A stretch of 64,000 nt of DNA, taken from positions 1-64,000 of the forward strand of contig NZ_BOOW01000010.1 of the NCBI RefSeq assembly GCF_016863435.1, read 5' to 3'. The notes below the pieces were generated by a model. That model did no database searches. It had not been told where the DNA came from and saw only the letters and a program-made list of their open reading frames with translations. The position numbers and the translations under genes were made by a program. Position 1 is the stretch's first letter; each line of letters starts with the position of its first letter. The stretch comes from Sinosporangium siamense. GTDB lineage: Bacteria > Actinomycetota > Actinomycetes > Streptosporangiales > Streptosporangiaceae. Shown here piece after piece: positions 7,137-49,781 of this stretch.

Positions 7137-8506
7137 GCGGCCTGGTGGGGGCCTTCCGTGACGATCGGCTGGGGCGTTTGAGGAAATTTGAGAAGATTGC
7201 GAAGTCCTTTGAAGATCAGGAGAGCGACCAGCACTTCGCTGAACAGCAAGCCATATCCAACCGCATTGATCCCGGCAATTGGGAACAGAAGCATCGAGGA
7301 GGCGAGCACCAAAACGGCCAGCCCTCCCTGCACCAGCATCAGTTGGCCGGCCTGGCTACGCGCCCGCAGACCACTCAGATAGATCTCGATCAGCACCCTC
7401 GGCAGCACCGCTAGCGCCATCAGCCGCAGCAGTGTGGTGCCGTGGTCGGCGAAGGCCGGGCCGAACACGCTGAGGATCAGCGGCGCGGCCAGAATTGTGA
7501 CGAGAACCACCGGGGTGATGATCATAAAGGCTCTTCTGAGCGCGTTGCGCGCGTTCTCAGCGAGCTGCGACCGGTCGAAGGCCCCCTCCACGGTGAGCGA
7601 GGTCGCCATGTTGATCGCCAGCAGCTCGATCATCGAGCCGAGGGTGTGCGCCATGGAGAAGTAGCCGAACGTCGCGGTGCCGACCTGGGCCGCCACCAGT
7701 ACCGGGACCAAATAGACGATCGCCAGCATGGACAACGTGCCCGGGTAGTCCCCGGCCAGGAAACGGCCGATCTCCCGCATGGGGAGCGGTCCTCCCGGCG
7801 CCGAGCCCGCGGTGTCCTTCACGTGTTTCGGGATCAGGAAGCCGAAGATCAGGATGTTGATCGGGATCAGCGCCATCGCCGTCGGTACGATCCACGACAC
7901 GAAGATGCCGTCCCCCGGCAGCGCCCCTGCCAGGGCCGCCAGGAGCACCATCTTGACCAGCCCGAAGCCCAGGCTGTTCACCGGCACCCAGGTGGCCTTG
8001 CGCAGTCCCGCCAGCGTCACGTCCTGCAAGGTGAAGATCGACCACACCAGCACAGAGGCGAGGAAGAACAGACCGGGGCCGAATCCGCCAAGCGAGGCAT
8101 AGGTGTCGCCCCACACCGGCAGGGTCAGCAGGAACCCGAGCGCCGCGGTCACACCCGTGGCGCCCGTGAGGAAGTAGGCCCGCCGGATCAGCATCGGCGT
8201 CCTTCGCCCGGCGACCGGGATGAACCTCGCGAGCGCTCCGACGAACCCCAGCGCGACGAGCGAGGCGAACAACCGCATCGCGGTGATCAGCGCCTGCCCG
8301 GCCCCGAAGTCCTCCACTGTGTAGAGCCGCGCGGCGATCAGCCAGTAGCCCATCCCCAGCACCGCGGTGATCGCGGTGTTGGCCATCAGGGCGTAGCCGT
8401 TCCGGAAGAGCGGGTTTCTGAGGTCGCGGAGGACCTTGTCCCGCAACGCGGAGAAGCGGCCGGACGCGGATCCCGCCTCCGGCCGCTTGCTCGCCGCCGT
8501 TTTCAT
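7133..8506 (-). CDS. Wzx-like polysaccharide flippase (MOP superfamily)
   Basis: The protein, 457 aa from the chosen ATG, consists of 12-14 hydrophobic segments in the pattern of the polysaccharide-transporter branch of the MOP superfamily, which flips lipid-linked glycans across the membrane. Features include the N-terminal RNGYALMANTAITAVLGMGYW segment (shown here in part) and a Leu-rich C-terminal half. I chose ATG 8506 because it is preceded by GAGAGGGG and starts MKTAASKR; a longer frame to 8620 would overlap the deacetylase gene by 74 bp. Its stop overlaps the next gene by ATGA. It belongs functionally with the downstream candidate polymerase and the upstream glycosyltransferases. Confidence 0.8.
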   Translation of the reverse strand: MKTAASKRPEAGSASGRFSALRDKVLRDLRNPLFRNGYALMANTAITAVLGMGYWLIAARLYTVEDFGAGQALITAMRLFASLVALGFVGALARFIPVAGRRTPMLIRRAYFLTGATGVTAALGFLLTLPVWGDTYASLGGFGPGLFFLASVLVWSIFTLQDVTLAGLRKATWVPVNSLGFGLVKMVLLAALAGALPGDGIFVSWIVPTAMALIPINILIFGFLIPKHVKDTAGSAPGGPLPMREIGRFLAGDYPGTLSMLAIVYLVPVLVAAQVGTATFGYFSMAHTLGSMIELLAINMATSLTVEGAFDRSQLAENARNALRRAFMIITPVVLVTILAAPLILSVFGPAFADHGTTLLRLMALAVLPRVLIEIYLSGLRARSQAGQLMLVQGGLAVLVLASSMLLFPIAGINAVGYGLLFSEVLVALLIFKGLRNLLKFPQTPQPIVTEGPHQAA

Positions 8507-35683: not shown

Positions 35684-36640
35684 ATGAGCCTCGACACGGT
35701 GCCGTTCTTCACCCGGCTGGCGGGGGTGCGGCGTGTGCTGATCGCGGGAGCGGGCGGCGGGCACGACGTCTATGCCGGGCTTCCCGTCGCGTTGACGCTG
35801 ATGGAGCGGGGTGTGGCCGTGACCTTCGCCAACCTCACCTTCAGCCCGCTGACCGAGCCCGGCCTCGACTGGATGGCGCCGGGGCTGGCCAGAGTCCACC
35901 CCGATCTGGAGCCGGACGGGCCCTACTTCCCCGAGTTGCGCCTCTCGCGGTGGCTGCGGAGCAGAGATCGCGACGCCGAGGTCTACGCGCTGGAGAAGAC
36001 CGGGGTGCGCCCGCTGACGAGGGCCTACCGGCAGCTCGTCGAGGCCCTCGGCGGTGTCGACGCCGTCGTGCTGGTCGACGGGGGCACGGACATCCTGATG
36101 CGGGGCGACGAGGCCGGCCTCGGCACCCCCGGGGAGGATCTGGCCAGTGTCGCCGCCGTCGCGGCCCTGCCCGAGGCGGTGATCAAGCTGGTGCTCAGCA
36201 TCGGCTTCGGCGTGGACACCTATCACGGCGTCTGCCACGCCCACGTCCTGGAGAACCTCGCCGCCCTGTCCCGGGACGGCGGATATCTCGGGGCGTTCTC
36301 CGTGCCGGGGGACAGCCCCGAGGGCCTGGCCTTCCTCGACGCGGTGAACGACGCCGCGGCGGTCATCCCCGAGCGGGCCTCCATCCCGAGCGGCTCCATC
36401 GCCGCCGCGGTGCGGGGCGAGGCCGGACATGTGGCCACAGGGGCGCGGGAGCTTAAGGGCGAGGTGTTCGTCAATCCGCTTATGGCGCTTTATTTCGCGG
36501 TCGAGTTGGATGTGCTGGTGCGTCACTGTCTTTACATGGATCTTATCGGCCCGACGGAGACCGCATGGCAGGTGCACGCGGTCATCGAAGGGTTCAGGAA
36601 AACGATAAGCCTGCGCCCCCGCCGTGCACTGCCTTTTTGA
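35684..36640 (+). CDS. DUF1152 family protein
   Basis: The 318-aa soluble protein contains VLIAGAGGGHDVYAGLPVAL, a nucleotide-binding-like Gly-rich loop, and VDGGTDILMRGDEAGLGTP, both typical of DUF1152. Family function is not established; a nucleotide- or SAM-binding role is plausible. It shows the codon use of its neighbours and ends just before the microprotein region. Confidence 0.8.
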   Translation: MSLDTVPFFTRLAGVRRVLIAGAGGGHDVYAGLPVALTLMERGVAVTFANLTFSPLTEPGLDWMAPGLARVHPDLEPDGPYFPELRLSRWLRSRDRDAEVYALEKTGVRPLTRAYRQLVEALGGVDAVVLVDGGTDILMRGDEAGLGTPGEDLASVAAVAALPEAVIKLVLSIGFGVDTYHGVCHAHVLENLAALSRDGGYLGAFSVPGDSPEGLAFLDAVNDAAAVIPERASIPSGSIAAAVRGEAGHVATGARELKGEVFVNPLMALYFAVELDVLVRHCLYMDLIGPTETAWQVHAVIEGFRKTISLRPRRALPF

Positions 36641-36703: not shown

Positions 36704-36724
36704 GGTGAACTTTTGCGGTTCACC
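36704..36724. promoter_or_regulatory. dyad upstream of microprotein gene 1
   Basis: GGTGAAC and GTTCACC form a perfect 7-bp inverted repeat around a 7-nt centre, flanked by CAAC and GTTG that extend the symmetry. It lies about 145 bp ahead of the ATG and 80 bp ahead of the shared 11-bp box, a reasonable operator position. Confidence 0.45.
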
Positions 36725-36800
36725 GTTGCCCTGCCTTTGCTTATTAAAGCGCAATCAGGGGGATGTTTGTGGTGGCTTGAAGGATAAGGACTTCGGCGGC

Positions 36801-36811
36801 TGATATATCTG
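36801..36811 (+). promoter_or_regulatory. shared box of the microprotein genes, copy 1
   Basis: TGATATATCTG begins 50 bp before ATG 36851; the identical 11-mer begins 49 bp before the second microprotein ATG. The GATATATC core is a palindrome and A/T-rich, so it could be a -10-like element or an operator. No canonical -35 at a normal distance is seen. Confidence 0.5.
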
Positions 36812-36850
36812 AAAAGGCTCGGCGGAAAAGCTGATCGAAGGAGGATAGGA

Positions 36851-36952
36851 ATGTACTTCTCGCTGCCCTCCAACTTCTTCCCGGACCGCAGAAGAAAGAA
36901 GAAGAAGGGGAAGAAGCACTACAAGAAGCACTACAAGAAGCGCTGCCATTGA
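36851..36952 (+). CDS. 33-aa Lys/Arg/His-rich microprotein
   Basis: A perfect AAGGAGG (36838-36844) lies six bases before the ATG. The product starts MYFSLPSNFFPD, then has a run of three Arg and four Lys, and ends with HYKKHYKKRCH. It carries 14 Lys/Arg, three His, one Cys and a single acidic residue, so it is strongly cationic, with a short hydrophobic N-terminus that is not a classical signal peptide. A factor-independent terminator follows at 37001. No family is recognised. It shares an upstream box and 3' hairpin type with the Trp-rich microprotein at 37690, so the two may be co-regulated. An RNA-, membrane- or polyanion-binding role is possible. Confidence 0.65.
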   Translation: MYFSLPSNFFPDRRRKKKKGKKHYKKHYKKRCH

Positions 36953-37000
36953 CGCTCATGTCGCTGCAAGAATAGGGCCGTGAACGGTCGGTTCATCTTG

Positions 37001-37044
37001 CGGATGAGAGCCGGAGTCCTGCGCTTCGGCTCTCATCCGTTTTT
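37001..37044 (+). terminator. factor-independent terminator of microprotein gene 1
   Basis: A perfect 13-bp stem (CGGATGAGAGCCG with its complement, extendable by a G-U and two pairs) is followed by five T residues, 48 bp after the stop codon. Its strength supports the gene being a separate short transcript. Confidence 0.85.
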
Positions 37045-37299
37045 ATGTCCGGGCGCGCAGTGACTTGGGGGCTGTTCCACGCCCTGCCCGGCTCGTCGCC
37101 GACGGGTGGGGAGTGTGCACCTCTATATAGGGGGTCCGCCGGCCGGGGCGGCAGGCGTCGAGGGGACGTTCAGTGCTCGATCTCTCCTCTCGGTCTCGTG
37201 TTCGCATCGCGGCCCGCTTCGCGCCTTCGTGCCTGTTCGCCCACCTCCGGTGGGTGCTGCGATCCCCGGCCTGGACTGTACGGCGGAAGCCGCCGGAAG

Positions 37300-37363
37300 G
37301 TACACCGTACGTATCTAAGTGAAGTACACCGTACGTATCCCGGATAAGTACGGCGTACGTATC
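37300..37363. repeat. three direct repeats at 24-bp spacing
   Basis: GTACACCGTACGTATC occurs at 37300 and 37324, and GTACGGCGTACGTATC at 37348, so each begins exactly 24 bp after the last. The core holds the palindrome CGTACG. This regular spacing suggests cooperative protein binding, about 280-330 bp upstream of the second microprotein box. Confidence 0.75.
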
Positions 37364-37640
37364 CGCTGACCAGCGGAAATGTCTCTGGGTTGGCCGTCGG
37401 CCAGATGTTCTGCAGGTCCGGCGATGCCGTACGGAATTCAACTTTGACGCCGCTTGGAGAGTGTGCCCGGCGCGGCAGAGATTCGGCTTTGTCCGGCCAG
37501 GCAGGGCTTTCGTAAAGATCGCAATAGACCCTGGGCCAACAAATAAGTTCGAGATAAAGGTTTGAGCTTGCCATTATTTTACCGATTAATCCATCTCTAG
37601 GGGACGTTGAAGTGGACTTGGGGGACGGTGTCGCAAATGG

Positions 37641-37651
37641 TGATATATCTG
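37641..37651 (+). promoter_or_regulatory. shared box of the microprotein genes, copy 2
   Basis: TGATATATCTG, identical to 36801-36811, begins 49 bp before ATG 37690. Both copies are followed by a CGAAAAA/CGGAAAAG-like element. Because this box is probably a promoter or operator element, it argues against the alternative GTG start at 37612. Confidence 0.5.
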
Positions 37652-37689
37652 GACTGAGTCCGAAAAACGATCCTTTAGGGGGGGTCTCC

Positions 37690-37818
37690 ATGATTGGTTC
37701 CGTGGTCAAGTGGCACGGATGGTGGGACGACGACGACTGGGACTTCGGTTGGGGATGGGGCGGCTGCGGCTGTCACCGCCGCCGCCACCACTGCGGCGGA
37801 GGCGGGTGGGGCTGGTAA
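37690..37818 (+). CDS. 42-aa Trp/Gly/Cys/His-rich microprotein
   Basis: ATG 37690 follows an AGGGGGGG stretch at 5-6 bases. The product starts MIGSVVKWHGWW, then has four Asp, then Trp/Gly repeats (WGWGG), a CGCHRRRHHC segment and a Gly/Trp end. In 42 residues there are eight Trp, twelve Gly, three Cys, four His and five Asp. The Cys/His cluster could bind a metal. There is no signal peptide and no recognised family. It shares its upstream box and the GGATGAGAGCC hairpin with the cationic microprotein upstream, and an ABC exporter follows 267 bp downstream. A start at GTG 37612 is possible but would place the shared box inside the gene. Confidence 0.6.
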   Translation: MIGSVVKWHGWWDDDDWDFGWGWGGCGCHRRRHHCGGGGWGW

Positions 37819-37833
37819 CAGCCACCCACGCCA

Positions 37834-37869
37834 GGATGAGAGCCCTGGCCCAGTCCGGCGGCTCTCACC
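37834..37869 (+). terminator. hairpin after microprotein gene 2
   Basis: TGAGAGCC (37837-37844) pairs with GGCTCTCA (37860-37867), flanked by a mismatch and another pair. GGATGAGAGCC is identical to the stem of the first microprotein terminator, but no T-tract follows, so termination may be leaky and allow readthrough to the exporter. Confidence 0.5.
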
Positions 37870-38085
37870 CGGTCTGACCCACAGGTGAATATGCGACCCT
37901 CGCCGCGAGTCGCCGATGACCTGCGGCGAGGGCGCTCACACCGGCCTCGGCCCAGCGATCCCTGCGGCCCGCGGGCCGGTTGATAATGCCCGCGGGCGAT
38001 TCCGGTCGCCTGCGGGTTACCGACGCATTTTTGCCGTGCGGTTTCGCGGTGTGCGCGAGACCCTGTGAAAGCGGAGCTGACTGCT

Positions 38086-39882
38086 ATGCGTATTCCTCAT
38101 GTCGCCCCGATTGTGTCGATCAGGCATGTGTTCCGTGCGTTCTGGCCGCATATGCAGGGCTATCGACGCTACCTGGTCATCGGAATATGCGTGGCCGTCT
38201 TCGCAGCCGGCTGCGAGGTGGTGGCCATTTGGCTGTTCGGCCGCATCACCGACGAGGTGCTGGCCAAACAGGACCTCGGCGCTTTCTGGGCTCCTGCCAT
38301 ACTCTGGCTCGGGCTCGCCGTAGTGGCGGGCATAGCCGCATTCATCGGCGGATGGCTCACGGCCCTCGCGGGGGAGCGGTTTCTGCTGAGATTGCGTGAC
38401 CACGTCTACGACCACATGCAGAAACTGTCGCCCGACTACTTCGAGAATCGCCGGCTCGGCGACCTCATGGCACGGCTGACCGACGACATCGAGGCCATCG
38501 AGGAACTCGTGGCCTCCGGACTCGTGCGGCTCGTCACCGTGCTGATCAGCATCGTCTTCTTCGCCGGGGCGGCCTTCTACATCAGATGGGACCTCGCGCT
38601 CATCACCGTGCTGCTGGTCCCGTCGTTCCTGTTCGTCTCCAAGCTGTTCGCCTCACGCTTCAGAAGCGCGGCCGGCCGCGAACGTCTCAGCAACGGCAGC
38701 ATGAACAGCGTGGTGGAGGAGAGCCTCTCCAACCAGGCACTCGTGCAGTCCTACAACCGCCAGCAGACCGAGGCGGTCCGCCTCCACAAGGTGGGACGCA
38801 CCTGGATGACGGCCAAACTCTCCGAGGCCCGGCTCGCGGTCGGATATGGACCCGTCGTCCAGGTTCTGGAGACCATCTGCCTGCTCGTCATCATCGGCGT
38901 GGGCGCGTGGCAGATCGTCCAGGGCCGACTCACCATCGGCGGTCTGATCGCCTTCGCGGCCTACCTCGGCTACCTCTACCCGACGATCCAGAACCTCGGC
39001 CAGATCGCCCTCACCGTCTCCGAGGCAGGGGCGGGCGCGGACCGGGTCATCGAGGTCCTCAAGTCCAAGCCCAGCGTCGCCGACAAACCCGGCGCCATCG
39101 AGATCGGCAGAGGGCAGGGGCGCGTCGAGTTCGCCAACGTGTGCTTCACCTACGACGGGCGCGCCAACGCCACCCTCACCGACCTGTCCTTCGCCGTCGG
39201 ACCGGGCGACGTGCTCGTGTGCACCGGCCCCAGCGGCTCCGGCAAGTCGACCATGGCCAAACTGCTGCTGCGGTTCTACGACCCAGCCGAGGGCTCGATC
39301 ACGATCGACGGTCACGACCTGCGCGACCTCACCCTCAGATCACTGCGGGAGAACATCACCGTCCTGCACCAGGAAAGCCTGCTCTTCTCCGGCACCGTGC
39401 GCGAGAACATCGCCTACGGCCGCCCCGGCGCCACCCTGGAGGAGATCGTGGAGGCCGCGATCGTCGCCGACGCCCACGAGTTCATCGAGGAACTCCCACA
39501 GGGTTACGAGACCCCGATGGGCCAGCGAGGCCGCCTCGTCTCCGGCGGCCAGCGCCAGCGCGTCGCCATCGCCCGAGCCCTCCTCAGGGACGCGCCCATC
39601 CTCATCCTCGACGAACCCATGACCGGCCTCGACCCGGCCGGCGCCGCCCGCGTCATGACGCCCCTGCGGCGCCTCATGGACGGGCGCACGACCATACTCA
39701 TCACCCACGACCTGCGACTCGTCCCGCATTCGACGCACACCATCGTCTTCGGCACCGCAGGGGAGGAGGTGCCCTTGTCCGTCAACGGCCACCACGAGCC
39801 CCTCCCCCTGGCCGACACCGCCTGCGGCTGCAAGGACCACCGCCGCCACCGCACCACCGTGGAGGCCCACCGCCTGGCGTGA
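38086..39882 (+). CDS. ABC exporter, fused permease and ATPase
   Basis: This half-transporter of 598 aa from ATG 38086 has six membrane segments (about residues 35-310) and a nucleotide-binding domain: Walker A GPSGSGKST, signature LVSGGQRQRVAIARA, Walker B ILILDEP and the ITHD switch His are intact. It would work as a homodimer. It resembles lipid/multidrug/peptide exporters; there is no C39 peptidase domain. The last 30 residues form an unusual Cys/His/Arg tail (ACGCKDHRRHR) that recalls the CGCHRRRHHC stretch in the 42-aa microprotein. The GTG at 38065 is a less likely start. Cargo is unknown; the microproteins are candidates by position. Confidence 0.85.
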   Translation: MRIPHVAPIVSIRHVFRAFWPHMQGYRRYLVIGICVAVFAAGCEVVAIWLFGRITDEVLAKQDLGAFWAPAILWLGLAVVAGIAAFIGGWLTALAGERFLLRLRDHVYDHMQKLSPDYFENRRLGDLMARLTDDIEAIEELVASGLVRLVTVLISIVFFAGAAFYIRWDLALITVLLVPSFLFVSKLFASRFRSAAGRERLSNGSMNSVVEESLSNQALVQSYNRQQTEAVRLHKVGRTWMTAKLSEARLAVGYGPVVQVLETICLLVIIGVGAWQIVQGRLTIGGLIAFAAYLGYLYPTIQNLGQIALTVSEAGAGADRVIEVLKSKPSVADKPGAIEIGRGQGRVEFANVCFTYDGRANATLTDLSFAVGPGDVLVCTGPSGSGKSTMAKLLLRFYDPAEGSITIDGHDLRDLTLRSLRENITVLHQESLLFSGTVRENIAYGRPGATLEEIVEAAIVADAHEFIEELPQGYETPMGQRGRLVSGGQRQRVAIARALLRDAPILILDEPMTGLDPAGAARVMTPLRRLMDGRTTILITHDLRLVPHSTHTIVFGTAGEEVPLSVNGHHEPLPLADTACGCKDHRRHRTTVEAHRLA

Positions 39883-39901: not shown

Positions 39902-39933
39902 GGGGGCGGGTGCCTATCGGGGCACCCGCCCCC
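39902..39933 (+). terminator. terminator hairpin of the exporter gene
   Basis: GGGGGCGGGTGCC pairs perfectly with GGCACCCGCCCCC around a 6-nt loop, 20 bp after the exporter stop. No T-tract follows, as is common in high-GC actinobacteria. Confidence 0.65.
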
Positions 39934-39952
39934 ACGGCCACGCCGGGGCGCC

Positions 39953-40118
39953 GTTGGACCATGCTCGCCTTCACGGCCAGGCTGGGGCGGTGTTGGACCA
40001 TGCTCGCCTTCATGGGCCAGGCTGGGGCGGTGTTGGACCATGCTCGCCTTCATGGCGAGGCTGGGGCGGTGTTGGACCATGCTCGCCTTCACGCCCAGGC
40101 TGGGGCGGTGTTGGACCA
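39953..40118. repeat. minisatellite, five 39-40-bp units
   Basis: GTTGGACCATGCTCGCC recurs at 39953, 39992, 40032 and 40071, and starts again at 40110 with a changed end. Spacings are 39, 40, 39 and 39 bp; the one 40-bp unit would break any reading frame, so the array is not a coding repeat. Shorter GGCTGACTGC-type repeats continue to about 40240. Confidence 0.85.
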
Positions 40119-40294
40119 TGCTGCCTCCATGCTCGCCACGGCGACTGCGCTGGTCGACCGGACCGGTCGACCGCACCGGCTGACTGCGCTGGTCGACTGC
40201 AGCGGCTGACTGCACCGGCTGACTGCGCTGGTCGACTGCGCCGGCCGGCTGGCCGCGCCGGTCGGCCGAACTGCGCGACATCGCCCTGGCCGGC

Positions 40295-47070: not shown

Positions 47071-48408
47071 ATGGAGCAAGACTTGTCTGAGGGACGCATT
47101 CTGCTCAAGGGCGGGACCGTCGTCACGATGGACCCCGAACTCGGCGACATCCCGAACGGCGACGTGCTCATCGGTAACGGGCGCATCGAGCAGGTGGCGG
47201 CCGGCATCGAGGCCCCGGACGCCGAGGTGGTGGACGCGAGCGGGACGCTGGTCATCCCCGGGCTGATCGACACGCATCTGCACATGTGGCAGCACCCGAT
47301 CCGTGGTCTGGGCGCAGGTTTGTGGGGCCTTGAGGACTACGTCACGAAGGTGTTCCCGGTGCGGGAGCGTTTCGGCCCGCGCGACATGCACGACGCGACC
47401 TACACCTGCGCGGTGGAGGCCCTGGCCAACGGCACCACGACGGTCCTCGACTTCTGCCACAACATCCTGACCCACGAGCACGCCGAGGAGTCACTGCGCG
47501 CGCACCGGTCGACCGGCCAGCGGGTGCTGTTCGCATACGGCATGCTCGGTTACGAGGACCGGCTGGCGGCCGAGCGCCAGAGCCGCCTCGCGCACGTCAG
47601 CGCGCTGCACGAGGAGCTCGGGTCCGACCCGGCCGCCCTGGTGCGGCTGGGCATGGCCGTCACGACGCTGACCTACGCGTCGATCGACGAGGTGCGCGCG
47701 GAGGTCGAGCACGCTCGCGGGCTCGGGTTGCCGATGAGCATCCACCAGAACGTCGCGGGAGAGATCACCAGGCTGCACGAGGCGGGTCTGCTCGGCGCGG
47801 ACCTGCTGCCGGTGCACTCCAACAACGCGACGGACACCGAGCTCGGCCTGCTGGCCGGCTGCGGGTGCGCGATCTCCTTCACCACCGAGGGGGAGTGGGG
47901 CGGCGGGCGGCCCATGAGCGTCGTGGGGCGTGCCGACCGGGCCGGCGTGCTGCCGACGCTGGGCGTGGACGTGCCGTCCAGGGTGGCGGTCGACATGCTG
48001 AGCCAGCTGCGCATCACCTTCAACATCATGCGGGCCGCCGAGGCGCAGGCCGAGCGGGACCAGGGCCGCTGGCCGCTCAGGCGCCACGGGGACACCCCCT
48101 ACGCGACACCGCGGCGGGTGCTTGAGTACGCCACGGTCAACGGGGCCAAGGCCGTCGGCCTCGGCGACCACCTGGGCACGCTCACACCGGGCAAACAGGC
48201 CGACGTCGTGGTGCTCCGTACCGGACCCTTCGGCGTGGCGGTGGGTGACCCGGCCGCGCACGTGGTGTTGCAGAGCACCGTCGGCGACATCGACGCGGTG
48301 CTCGTCGCCGGGCGGTTCCGCAAACGGGACGGGCGACTCGTCGACGTCGACACCGGCAGGCTTTCGAGCCTGGTCGCCGGTGTGCGCGAACGAGTCGGCG
48401 TTTCGTAG
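47071..48408 (+). CDS. amidohydrolase, SsnA/cytosine-deaminase-like (copy 1)
   Basis: The 445-aa enzyme is of the amidohydrolase superfamily subgroup that deaminates or dechlorinates N-heterocycles. Metal ligands are visible: His69 and His71 in DTHLHMW, His225 in MSIHQN, His249 in PVHSNN and Asp300 in GVDVPSR. The C-terminal beta-sandwich includes GTLTPGKQADVVVL. Start is ambiguous: ATG 47071 has no good ribosome binding site, whereas TTG 47083 has GGAG at six bases; the same arrangement is conserved in the paralogue. It lies directly after the substrate-binding lipoprotein gene. Substrate unknown. Confidence 0.85.
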   Translation: MEQDLSEGRILLKGGTVVTMDPELGDIPNGDVLIGNGRIEQVAAGIEAPDAEVVDASGTLVIPGLIDTHLHMWQHPIRGLGAGLWGLEDYVTKVFPVRERFGPRDMHDATYTCAVEALANGTTTVLDFCHNILTHEHAEESLRAHRSTGQRVLFAYGMLGYEDRLAAERQSRLAHVSALHEELGSDPAALVRLGMAVTTLTYASIDEVRAEVEHARGLGLPMSIHQNVAGEITRLHEAGLLGADLLPVHSNNATDTELGLLAGCGCAISFTTEGEWGGGRPMSVVGRADRAGVLPTLGVDVPSRVAVDMLSQLRITFNIMRAAEAQAERDQGRWPLRRHGDTPYATPRRVLEYATVNGAKAVGLGDHLGTLTPGKQADVVVLRTGPFGVAVGDPAAHVVLQSTVGDIDAVLVAGRFRKRDGRLVDVDTGRLSSLVAGVRERVGVS

Positions 48409-48440: not shown

Positions 48441-49781
48441 ATGGAGCACAACTTGTCTGACCGACGCATCCTGCTCAAAGGCGGGACAGTCATCACGCTG
48501 GACCCCGAACTCGGTGACCTTCCGGGGGGAGACGTCCTCATCAGTGACGGCCGCATCGAGAGGGTGGCGGCCGGGATCGAGGCGCCCGACGCCGAGGTGG
48601 TGGAGGCCCGCGGCATGATCGTCATGCCCGGCCTCATCGACACCCACCTGCACATGTGGCAGCACCCACTGCGCGGGCTCGGCGGGAACGTCTGGGGCTT
48701 CGACGACTACAGCTCGCATGTGTTCCCGCTCCGGGAGCGCTTCGGGCCGCAGGAGATGCACGACGCGACCTACACCTGCGCGCTGCAGTCCATGTCCTAC
48801 GGCACCACGACGGCGCTGGACTTCTGCCACAACGTCCTCACCCAGGAGCACGCGGAGGGGTCGCTGCGCGCGCACCTCACCACCGGCCAGCGGGTGATGT
48901 ACGCCTACGGCATGCTGGGCTACGACGACCGTCTTGAGCAGGAACGGCAGAGCCGCCTCGCCCACGTGACCAAGCTCCACGGTGAGCTGGGGGCGGACCC
49001 GACCCAGCTTGTGCGGCTGGGCCTGGCGCTCACGACCCTCACCTACGCCAAGGTCGAAGAGGTGCGGGTGGAGGCCGACCACGGCCGCAGCCTCGGCCTG
49101 CCGATGACGATCCACCAGAACGGCGCCGGCGAGGTCTCGCGTCTTCACGAGGGTGGTGTGCTCGGCGCCGACCTGCTGCCGGTGCACTCCAACAACCTGA
49201 GCGACCACGAGATCGGGCTGCTCGCCTCCTGCGGGTGCGCGATCTCCTTCACCCCCGAGAGCGAGCACAGCGGCGGCCTCTCGATGAGTGTGATCGGCCG
49301 TTCGGACCGTGCGGGTGTGCTGCCGACGATCGGGGTGGACGCCCCGTCGTTCACCGATGTGGACATGTTCCTGCAGCTCCGCGCGACCTATAACATCATG
49401 CGGGCGACCGAGGCGCAGCACGAGCGTCACGAGGGCCGCTGGCCGCTGCGCCGCCACCATGGCTCGCCGTTCGTGACCGCGCGGCGTGTGCTCGAGTACG
49501 CCACGGTGAACGCCGCCAAGGCCATCGGCCTCGGCGACCACCTGGGCTCGCTGACTCCCGGCAAGCAGGCCGACGTCGTGCTGCTGCGCACCGAGCCGTT
49601 CGCCCCGGCGACGGGTGACCCCGCCAACCACATCGTCAACTACGCCTCCGGGCGCGACGTCGACTCTGTGCTGGTGGGCGGCACCTTCCGCAAGCGGGAC
49701 GGTCACCTGGTGGACGTCGACACCGAGCGCGTGTCGGCCATGGCCCACGATGTGCGCCGGAGGGTGCTCGGCGACGCCTGA
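48441..49781 (+). CDS. amidohydrolase, SsnA/cytosine-deaminase-like (copy 2)
   Basis: This 446-aa paralogue is collinear with copy 1 and alike along its whole length (for example DTHLHMWQHPLRGLG, SFTPESEHSGG, GVDAPSFTDVD, GSLTPGKQADVVLL). All metal ligands are kept. The differences cluster in the segment after residue 80 and in SFTxE, so substrate range may differ. It starts 32 bp after copy 1 with the same ATGGAGCAxxACTTG start region, and a strong terminator follows, so lipoprotein and both enzymes probably form one transcript. Confidence 0.85.
   Translation: MEHNLSDRRILLKGGTVITLDPELGDLPGGDVLISDGRIERVAAGIEAPDAEVVEARGMIVMPGLIDTHLHMWQHPLRGLGGNVWGFDDYSSHVFPLRERFGPQEMHDATYTCALQSMSYGTTTALDFCHNVLTQEHAEGSLRAHLTTGQRVMYAYGMLGYDDRLEQERQSRLAHVTKLHGELGADPTQLVRLGLALTTLTYAKVEEVRVEADHGRSLGLPMTIHQNGAGEVSRLHEGGVLGADLLPVHSNNLSDHEIGLLASCGCAISFTPESEHSGGLSMSVIGRSDRAGVLPTIGVDAPSFTDVDMFLQLRATYNIMRATEAQHERHEGRWPLRRHHGSPFVTARRVLEYATVNAAKAIGLGDHLGSLTPGKQADVVLLRTEPFAPATGDPANHIVNYASGRDVDSVLVGGTFRKRDGHLVDVDTERVSAMAHDVRRRVLGDA

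Follow-up and report, generated by a model that had tools for sequence, protein, structure and literature searches.

Tiny, usually charged peptide genes before a half-size ABC exporter: a recurring actinobacterial pairing that looks like an uncatalogued peptide-secretion module

We describe a recurring actinobacterial pairing of a tiny, usually charged peptide gene with an ABC exporter, which looks like an uncatalogued peptide-secretion module. The pairing was recognised from a window of 64,000 nucleotides of the Sinosporangium siamense genome (the whole stretch of DNA analysed here), where two small unannotated genes adjoin a membrane exporter. At the loci of other genera, the slot directly upstream of the exporter is conserved and holds a short ORF constrained at the amino-acid level, a hairpin follows this ORF in most cases, and in most cases, too, the exporter can start at a codon overlapping its end. 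All coordinates are those of the window.

Gene 1 (36851-36952, + strand) encodes a basic microprotein of 33 aa, MYFSLPSNFFPDRRRKKKKGKKHYKKHYKKRCH, with a net charge of +13, and gene 2 (37690-37818, + strand) encodes a Trp/Gly/Cys/His microprotein of 42 aa with a net charge of -1 (K, R, D and E counted). Both ORFs are present where a preliminary description of this DNA had placed two tiny genes, and both ATGs are preceded by RBS-like stretches (GGAGG at 36840-36844 for gene 1, AGGGGGGG for gene 2). The same description held that the proteins are unrelated and have no double-Gly leader; we likewise find no significant sequence likeness between the two products and no such leader visible in the peptides. 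Searches of Pfam and NCBIfam at E up to 1 returned nothing for either product. Searching other genera for sequence relatives of gene 2 gave weak matches in unrelated frames; two Bifidobacterium matches are the DDDDWDF that closes a 361-codon frame. No gene lies immediately 3' of gene 1.

The exporter (38086-39882, + strand) is an ABCB/MsbA-type half-size protein of 598 aa with the Pfam domains ABC_membrane and ABC_tran; a peptidase C39 domain is not among the 18 Pfam families listed. At E up to 1e-180, orthologs were found at 74 places in 73 of the 297 family genomes (57-100% identical), the other 224 having none at this threshold. The 72 exporter loci outside the window's genus were fetched for comparison; four have less than 3 kb of upstream sequence, and loci of one genus are not independent of each other. 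A class-wide search of 393 genomes yielded ten further exporter loci (46-51% identity) in eight genomes of one other family, probably Streptomyces, and a second search of 394 genomes with a Streptomyces-like exporter as query returned the same two families only. The flanks, searched over about 3.2 kb up and 1.3 kb down, contain neither a third conserved gene family (ORF families of at least 90 codons reached at most 3 of 13 genera, at scattered positions) nor a conserved modification enzyme, and no immunity gene was found at the peptide-exporter loci. About five copies of a 39-bp tandem repeat follow the window's exporter shortly (39933-40126). The neighbouring long ORFs at 47071-48408 and 48441-49781 are an apparent tandem duplicate, each matching both of the copies in the sister species.

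All 72 family loci outside the genus have an ORF of 30-59 aa (median 39) directly upstream of the exporter; its end lies 45-203 nt ahead of the position that aligns with exporter residue 1. Gene 2 occupies the same slot, and the suggestion that the exporter at 38086 is the partner of the small genes is thus strengthened. The slot peptides are mostly rich in Arg, Trp, Cys and Gly, as in MTVNKLFPTSFDSWGWGGCGCRRRRCGCRRRWCGCGGWGGGWW: 68 of 72 contain RRR, 64 have two or more Cys and 63 a Trp among the last three residues, with charges from +1 to +15 (median +10). As the scan selects the top ORF of each slot on composition, RBS and ATG, control slots were put through the same selection. A composition score of at least 1.5 was reached in 70 of 72 real slots and in 0 of 210 control slots (0/69 further upstream, 0/72 antisense, 0/69 downstream); the two real slots below 1.5 (G071 and G137) hold Lys/Pro-rich ORFs, a type outside the score's design. 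Among 19 other exporter-like matches in the window's genome none reached 1.5, one having no upstream sequence and the slot being approximate for some because the alignment covers the ATPase part only. Ten family peptides had no NCBIfam match and two Pfam matches at chance level.

The ten Streptomyces-like loci each have a short ORF upstream as well, nine of them found in the scan with an RBS-like stretch, and the peptide of L142 (MSLFSHLAPAKRHSKGKK...) lying, as judged by eye, within a longer GTG frame; an eleventh such locus, L181, has one too. These peptides are of Lys/Pro/Ala (e.g., MSFHKIAPVKKAAKPVPAPKKKTPKKHAPKRRPIAHKG), Arg/Gly/Tyr, Arg-run and His/Asp types. The tail of the L181 peptide is a run of thirteen Arg; that of L143, a peptide of net charge 0, reads HDHDHDHGHGH. 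Of the 72 family peptides 38, and of the 13 Streptomyces-like ones 12, have a short N-terminal motif, [AFTLIVD]P after 4 to 7 residues; the peptides of genus g4 are largely without it. Named records from Nonomuraea gerenzanensis and from the Streptomyces nigrescens plasmid SNP1 agree with the module, the former with a peptide identical to those of G223, G291 and G303 (g4), so that it may not be independent. L140 carries two peptide ORFs in tandem. The twin arrangement of the window, which the preliminary description had proposed to look for in related genomes, does not appear to be general: no second microprotein turned up in the 72 other family loci under a filter that recovers gene 1 in each species of the genus but passes only 61 of 72 known peptides and misses the L140 tandem.

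We then asked how the slot peptides change between relatives, using 32 same-genus pairs picked by exporter DNA alone and without a filter on the peptide. Pooled over these pairs, 276.2 of 796.2 synonymous sites differ (pS 0.347) against 258.8 of 2836.8 nonsynonymous sites (pN 0.091), a pattern indicating that the slot peptides are under purifying selection. In 28 of the 32 pairs pN is below pS; three of the rest are almost without differences, and in the pair G137/G075 pN exceeds pS. These values replace an earlier estimate (33 pairs, pS 0.40, pN 0.086) that had been restricted to pairs with pN below 0.25 and therefore favoured constraint. Compared with the exporter, peptide genes are enriched in CGT (0.22 vs 0.06) and GGT (0.16 vs 0.06) and depleted in CGG (0.17 vs 0.41) and GGG (0.08 vs 0.31). 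Highly expressed genes commonly show biased codon use, and the shift, with the exporter as sole comparison, may hint at strong expression of the peptides.

Relative to the peptide, the exporter is read in the -1 frame at 61 of 72 loci, and its open frame spans the peptide stop in 60, of which 58 are in the -1 frame. Given this frame bias, a programmed -1 frameshift from peptide to exporter was considered; re-initiation at a GTG was found simpler. More specifically, 57 of 72 loci have a GTG, at -7 or -10, that overlaps the final codons of the peptide gene, as in TGGTGGTGGTAA; it stands at -7 in 53 of these 57. Between the stop and the aligned exporter start, 37 of the 57 coupled loci have no in-frame ATG, GTG or TTG, and seven have a later GTG with an RBS-like stretch. 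Within genus g4, 37 of 38 spacings are multiples of 3, with eight distinct lengths, a pattern that favours a translated spacer. The last residue is Trp or Cys in all 57 coupled peptides, as against 9 of 15 others; part of this excess follows from the overlap itself, because the last codon must begin with TG for a GTG to stand at -7. The window and the sister species G001 show no such coupling; in both, the exporter has an ATG accompanied by an RBS-like stretch.

Hairpins and a promoter-like element are likewise shared across loci. The first 75 nt downstream of the peptide stop fold more stably than shuffled sequence at 66 of 72 loci (z below -2, 30 shuffles per locus), and perfect stems of at least 7 bp are found in 65 of 72, GAGAGCC arms being the commonest. 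Where peptide and exporter are coupled, this hairpin falls within the open frame of the exporter; uncoupled loci such as G230 and G140 carry a hairpin too. A motif search over 46 non-redundant upstream regions returned TGcTAatGTC at width 10, which has the shape of an extended -10 element. Among the 42 regions from other genera, 36 contain a site scoring 8.4 bits or more, in each case 31-63 nt upstream of the ATG (scored without a shuffled-set control), and the four regions of the window's genus have no match to the width-10 motif (scores below 2). At widths 16 and 22, both gene 2 regions of the genus match at GGACGGTGTCGCAA(A/T)T, immediately before the box described below. This box may serve the genus as its own -10 element (TGnTATATC, judged by shape), or it may have been added behind an ancestral element that has since changed.

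In the window itself, the two genes share parts of an expression cassette. The preliminary description had reported an identical 11-mer 49-50 bp ahead of both ATGs, and in the window's genome this is so: TGATATATCTG starts 50 bp before the ATG of gene 1 (36801-36811, in a regulatory stretch at 36725-36814, + strand) and 49 bp before that of gene 2 (37641-37651, in a conserved regulatory stretch at 37532-37689, + strand). These are the only two copies in the whole genome of 8,855,038 bases; the reversed control pattern has none. Anchored at the box, the likeness of the two upstream stretches extends past it (about 80 bp), with z values of 3.1, 4.1, 4.9 and 5.8 against shuffles for the four pairings of a gene 1 stretch with a gene 2 stretch from the two species. 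Without anchoring, local alignment upstream of the box is not significant for the window's own pair (643 of 1000 shuffles equally good), and 7, 22 and 141 of 1000 shuffles do equally well for the other three pairs. The likeness beyond the box thus rests on register, since the anchored alignment scores and the unanchored one of the window's pair does not. Predicted folds of the stretch before gene 2 differ between copies and species, giving no consistent RNA structure, and Rfam over the window gave nothing at gathering and weak sub-threshold matches only in a relaxed search. A wider regulon built on the 11-mer, which the preliminary description had proposed to seek, did not emerge: TGATATATCTGGA matched 6 of 297 family genomes, two of them of the window's genus and the other four without such a cassette, with 3 matches for the reversed control, and GACTTG-N19-28-TATATCTGGA matched the window's genome and one other among 394 class genomes.

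The 3' hairpins said to be built on a common arm are indeed related, the first with its T-tract. Gene 1 is followed by a terminator-like hairpin (37001-37044, + strand; stem 37001-37039, then five T) and gene 2 by a hairpin at 37834-37871 (+ strand), both beginning with GGATGAGAGCC; a second hairpin follows gene 2 at 37897-37932 (+ strand). The genome contains three matches to TGAGAGCC-N3-30-GGCTCTCA, two at these cassettes and one 3' of an unrelated gene; given this third copy, the arm is not a signal unique to the cassettes. Across 30 selected genomes that carry the exporter, GAGAGCCG-N3-30-CGGCTCTC occurs at 42 places (reversed control 8), 20 of which, by our count, are at a peptide-exporter cassette.

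The sole other genome of the genus in the searches made, G001, carries counterparts of both genes. Gene 2 is 83% identical, with changes biased towards synonymous sites (11.0 of 22.3 synonymous, 8.0 of 100.7 nonsynonymous), and its regulatory stretch is well kept (89 of 100 columns identical over 37544-37643). The gene 1 counterpart, of 28 aa, is recognised by place, box and composition, and an uncertain alignment of 26 codons (9.5 of 13.3 synonymous and 18.5 of 64.7 nonsynonymous sites changed) suggests weak coding constraint. The expected conservation of the peptide frames in a near relative holds for gene 2 and, on this uncertain alignment, weakly for gene 1. Net charges in G001 are +11 for the gene 1 counterpart and +1 for that of gene 2. 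As for the cassette, which had been described as the conserved element, the box is kept, and G001 gene 1 is likewise trailed by a hairpin with GAGAGCC arms; the spacing of about 50 bp is not conserved for gene 1 (109 bp from box to ATG in G001), and the GGATGAGAGCC hairpin after gene 2 is absent from G001, which keeps the second one. The intergenic stretch ahead of the conserved gene 2 region aligns poorly to G001; there, between the twin genes, the window has three 24-bp tandem copies around GTACACCGTACGTATC (37293-37364), an array not seen in the G001 counterpart. The DUF1152 gene before gene 1 (35684-36640) is reduced in the sister (L011 reversed, 7904-8127) to its first 157 and last 71 aligned bases, now adjoining.

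Taken together, these observations suggest an exported, leaderless-bacteriocin-like peptide module of which gene 2 and the exporter are one instance, a reading to which we give an even chance. In such a module a promoter would drive a microprotein (28 to 68 aa long and in most cases strongly basic) together with a dedicated half-size ABC exporter behind it; a hairpin would sit between the two, and at most family loci the exporter start codon would fall within the end of the peptide gene. Many of the peptides have a short N-terminal motif (about M-S/T-F-x-K-L/I/V-F/A-P) followed by a low-complexity tail that varies by lineage. The exporter might recognise the peptides through this motif and secrete them unmodified, and once outside the cell they would most likely act on membranes, in the manner of leaderless bacteriocins. 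Several observations count against this reading: the N-terminal motif is far from universal, gene 1 shows no significant likeness to gene 2, immunity genes were not found, pN exceeds pS in G137/G075, and gene 2 has lost the positive charge typical of family peptides, even if its best reading is as the genus's diverged exporter-linked peptide. Gene 1 would most likely be a duplicated cassette carrying the basic half, with gene 2 keeping the Trp/Cys half. Since the two together have the make-up of one family peptide elsewhere, the two-part system of basic and acidic/aromatic partners that had been proposed can fairly be inferred, with gene 1 as the basic part and gene 2 as the Trp/Cys/Gly part. 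We regard as rather doubtful, and offer tentatively, a bolder version: one half-size exporter, reading a short N-terminal tag close to MSFxK[LIV][FA]P, exports low-complexity tails that can replace one another (Arg/Trp/Cys, Lys/Pro/Ala, Arg/Gly or His), its dose is tied to peptide translation by the GTG in the terminal Trp/Cys codons, the tail is split over two genes in the window's genus, and the whole forms a large uncatalogued actinobacterial class.

The main rival, which we consider unlikely, takes the small ORF as a leader that works in cis: while translating its polybasic or Trp-rich stretch, ribosomes would sense antibiotics or charged tRNA and set exporter expression via the hairpin and translational coupling, as BmrB does for BmrC/BmrD in Bacillus subtilis. 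The order of parts is indeed that of bmrBCD (short ORF, hairpin, MsbA-type exporter), and both the strongly folding hairpin (66 of 72 loci) and the exporter start overlapping the ORF end (57 of 72) would suit such a role. However, no consistent antiterminator was found, pairing of the hairpin 5' arm with the upstream region giving a mean z of -0.74 and values below -2 in 10 of 65 loci. A leader also fits poorly with the amino-acid constraint over the peptide and with gene 1, which has no gene directly behind. Furthermore, regulation is usually labile, yet the ORF is present at every exporter locus examined.

A role inside the cell appears quite improbable, with the peptide as a small regulatory or stabilising exporter subunit, or as a polycation binding nucleic acid or phospholipid, made together with the exporter. 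Strict linkage and the overlapping start would suit a fixed ratio of two partners, and the Lys/Pro/Ala and Arg/Gly tails are like those of nucleic-acid-binding proteins; yet tail composition is wholly changed between lineages while the exporter remains recognisable, and the window's genus has a second, free peptide gene. That gene could itself be foreign to the module, an adjacent gene that has gained a promoter and terminator of similar type, leaving gene 2 as the only member. We hold this to be clearly unlikely: it would explain why no second microprotein is seen in the other 72 loci (by the filter passing 61 of 72 known peptides), why the local alignment upstream of the box is not significant for the window genome's pair and why the box spacing differs in the sister species, but the unique common 11-mer, the anchored alignment, the common hairpin arm and the position kept in the sister species argue for kinship. 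That both species keep gene 1, each with a box and hairpin belonging to it and without a gene immediately 3' of it, in turn speaks for a trans-acting product, as the reading of an exported peptide would have it.

If exported, the peptides would be a source of very short, strongly charged and often Trp- and Cys-rich products in antibiotic-rich actinobacteria, outside the coverage of the Pfam and NCBIfam copies searched. The exporter would then be a one-protein system for unmodified peptides, opening to test the known puzzle of how peptidase-less ABC exporters recognise leaderless peptides, and the overlapping start codon would be a compact tie of exporter dose to peptide translation. We recognised no description of the peptide-exporter module in the full-text literature (subscription papers and preprints being outside this scope).

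Compared with known systems, the module is closest in outline to leaderless bacteriocins (LsbB with LmrB; aureocin A53 and lacticin Q), in which a very short unmodified peptide, often basic and Trp-rich, goes with an ABC exporter; LmrB is reported for both secretion and immunity of LsbB (PMC6131525, PMC7332713). A short ORF is linked to an exporter at every locus we examined, cleavage being unreadable from sequence. Unlike leaderless bacteriocins, the module has low-complexity Arg/Trp/Cys/Gly or Lys/Pro tails with no sequence relation established, no immunity genes seen, and an exporter start that lies within the peptide gene. In PMC11580447 the leaderless bacteriocins of actinomycetes are of the aureocin A53-like kind, and no Nonomuraea or Streptosporangi- is named in its text. 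RiPP and double-glycine precursors with a peptidase-containing ABC exporter resemble the module in having a precursor-sized ORF adjoining an exporter, but here the exporter has no peptidase domain (C39 being missing among the 18 families listed), the flanks (about 3.2 kb up, 1.3 kb down) hold no adjacent or conserved modification enzyme, and no double-Gly leader is visible, so that neither a modified RiPP nor a double-glycine bacteriocin fits. The bmrBCD system of Bacillus subtilis (PMC4191407) shares with the module a short translated ORF and a terminator-like hairpin before a multidrug-type ABC exporter; its terminator lies inside bmrB and antiterminator structures are predicted, whereas a bmrB-type attenuator with mutually exclusive terminator and antiterminator is not seen here, arm pairing being on average no better than shuffled. 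The module further differs from bmrBCD in its strong amino-acid constraint and in its freestanding second peptide gene.
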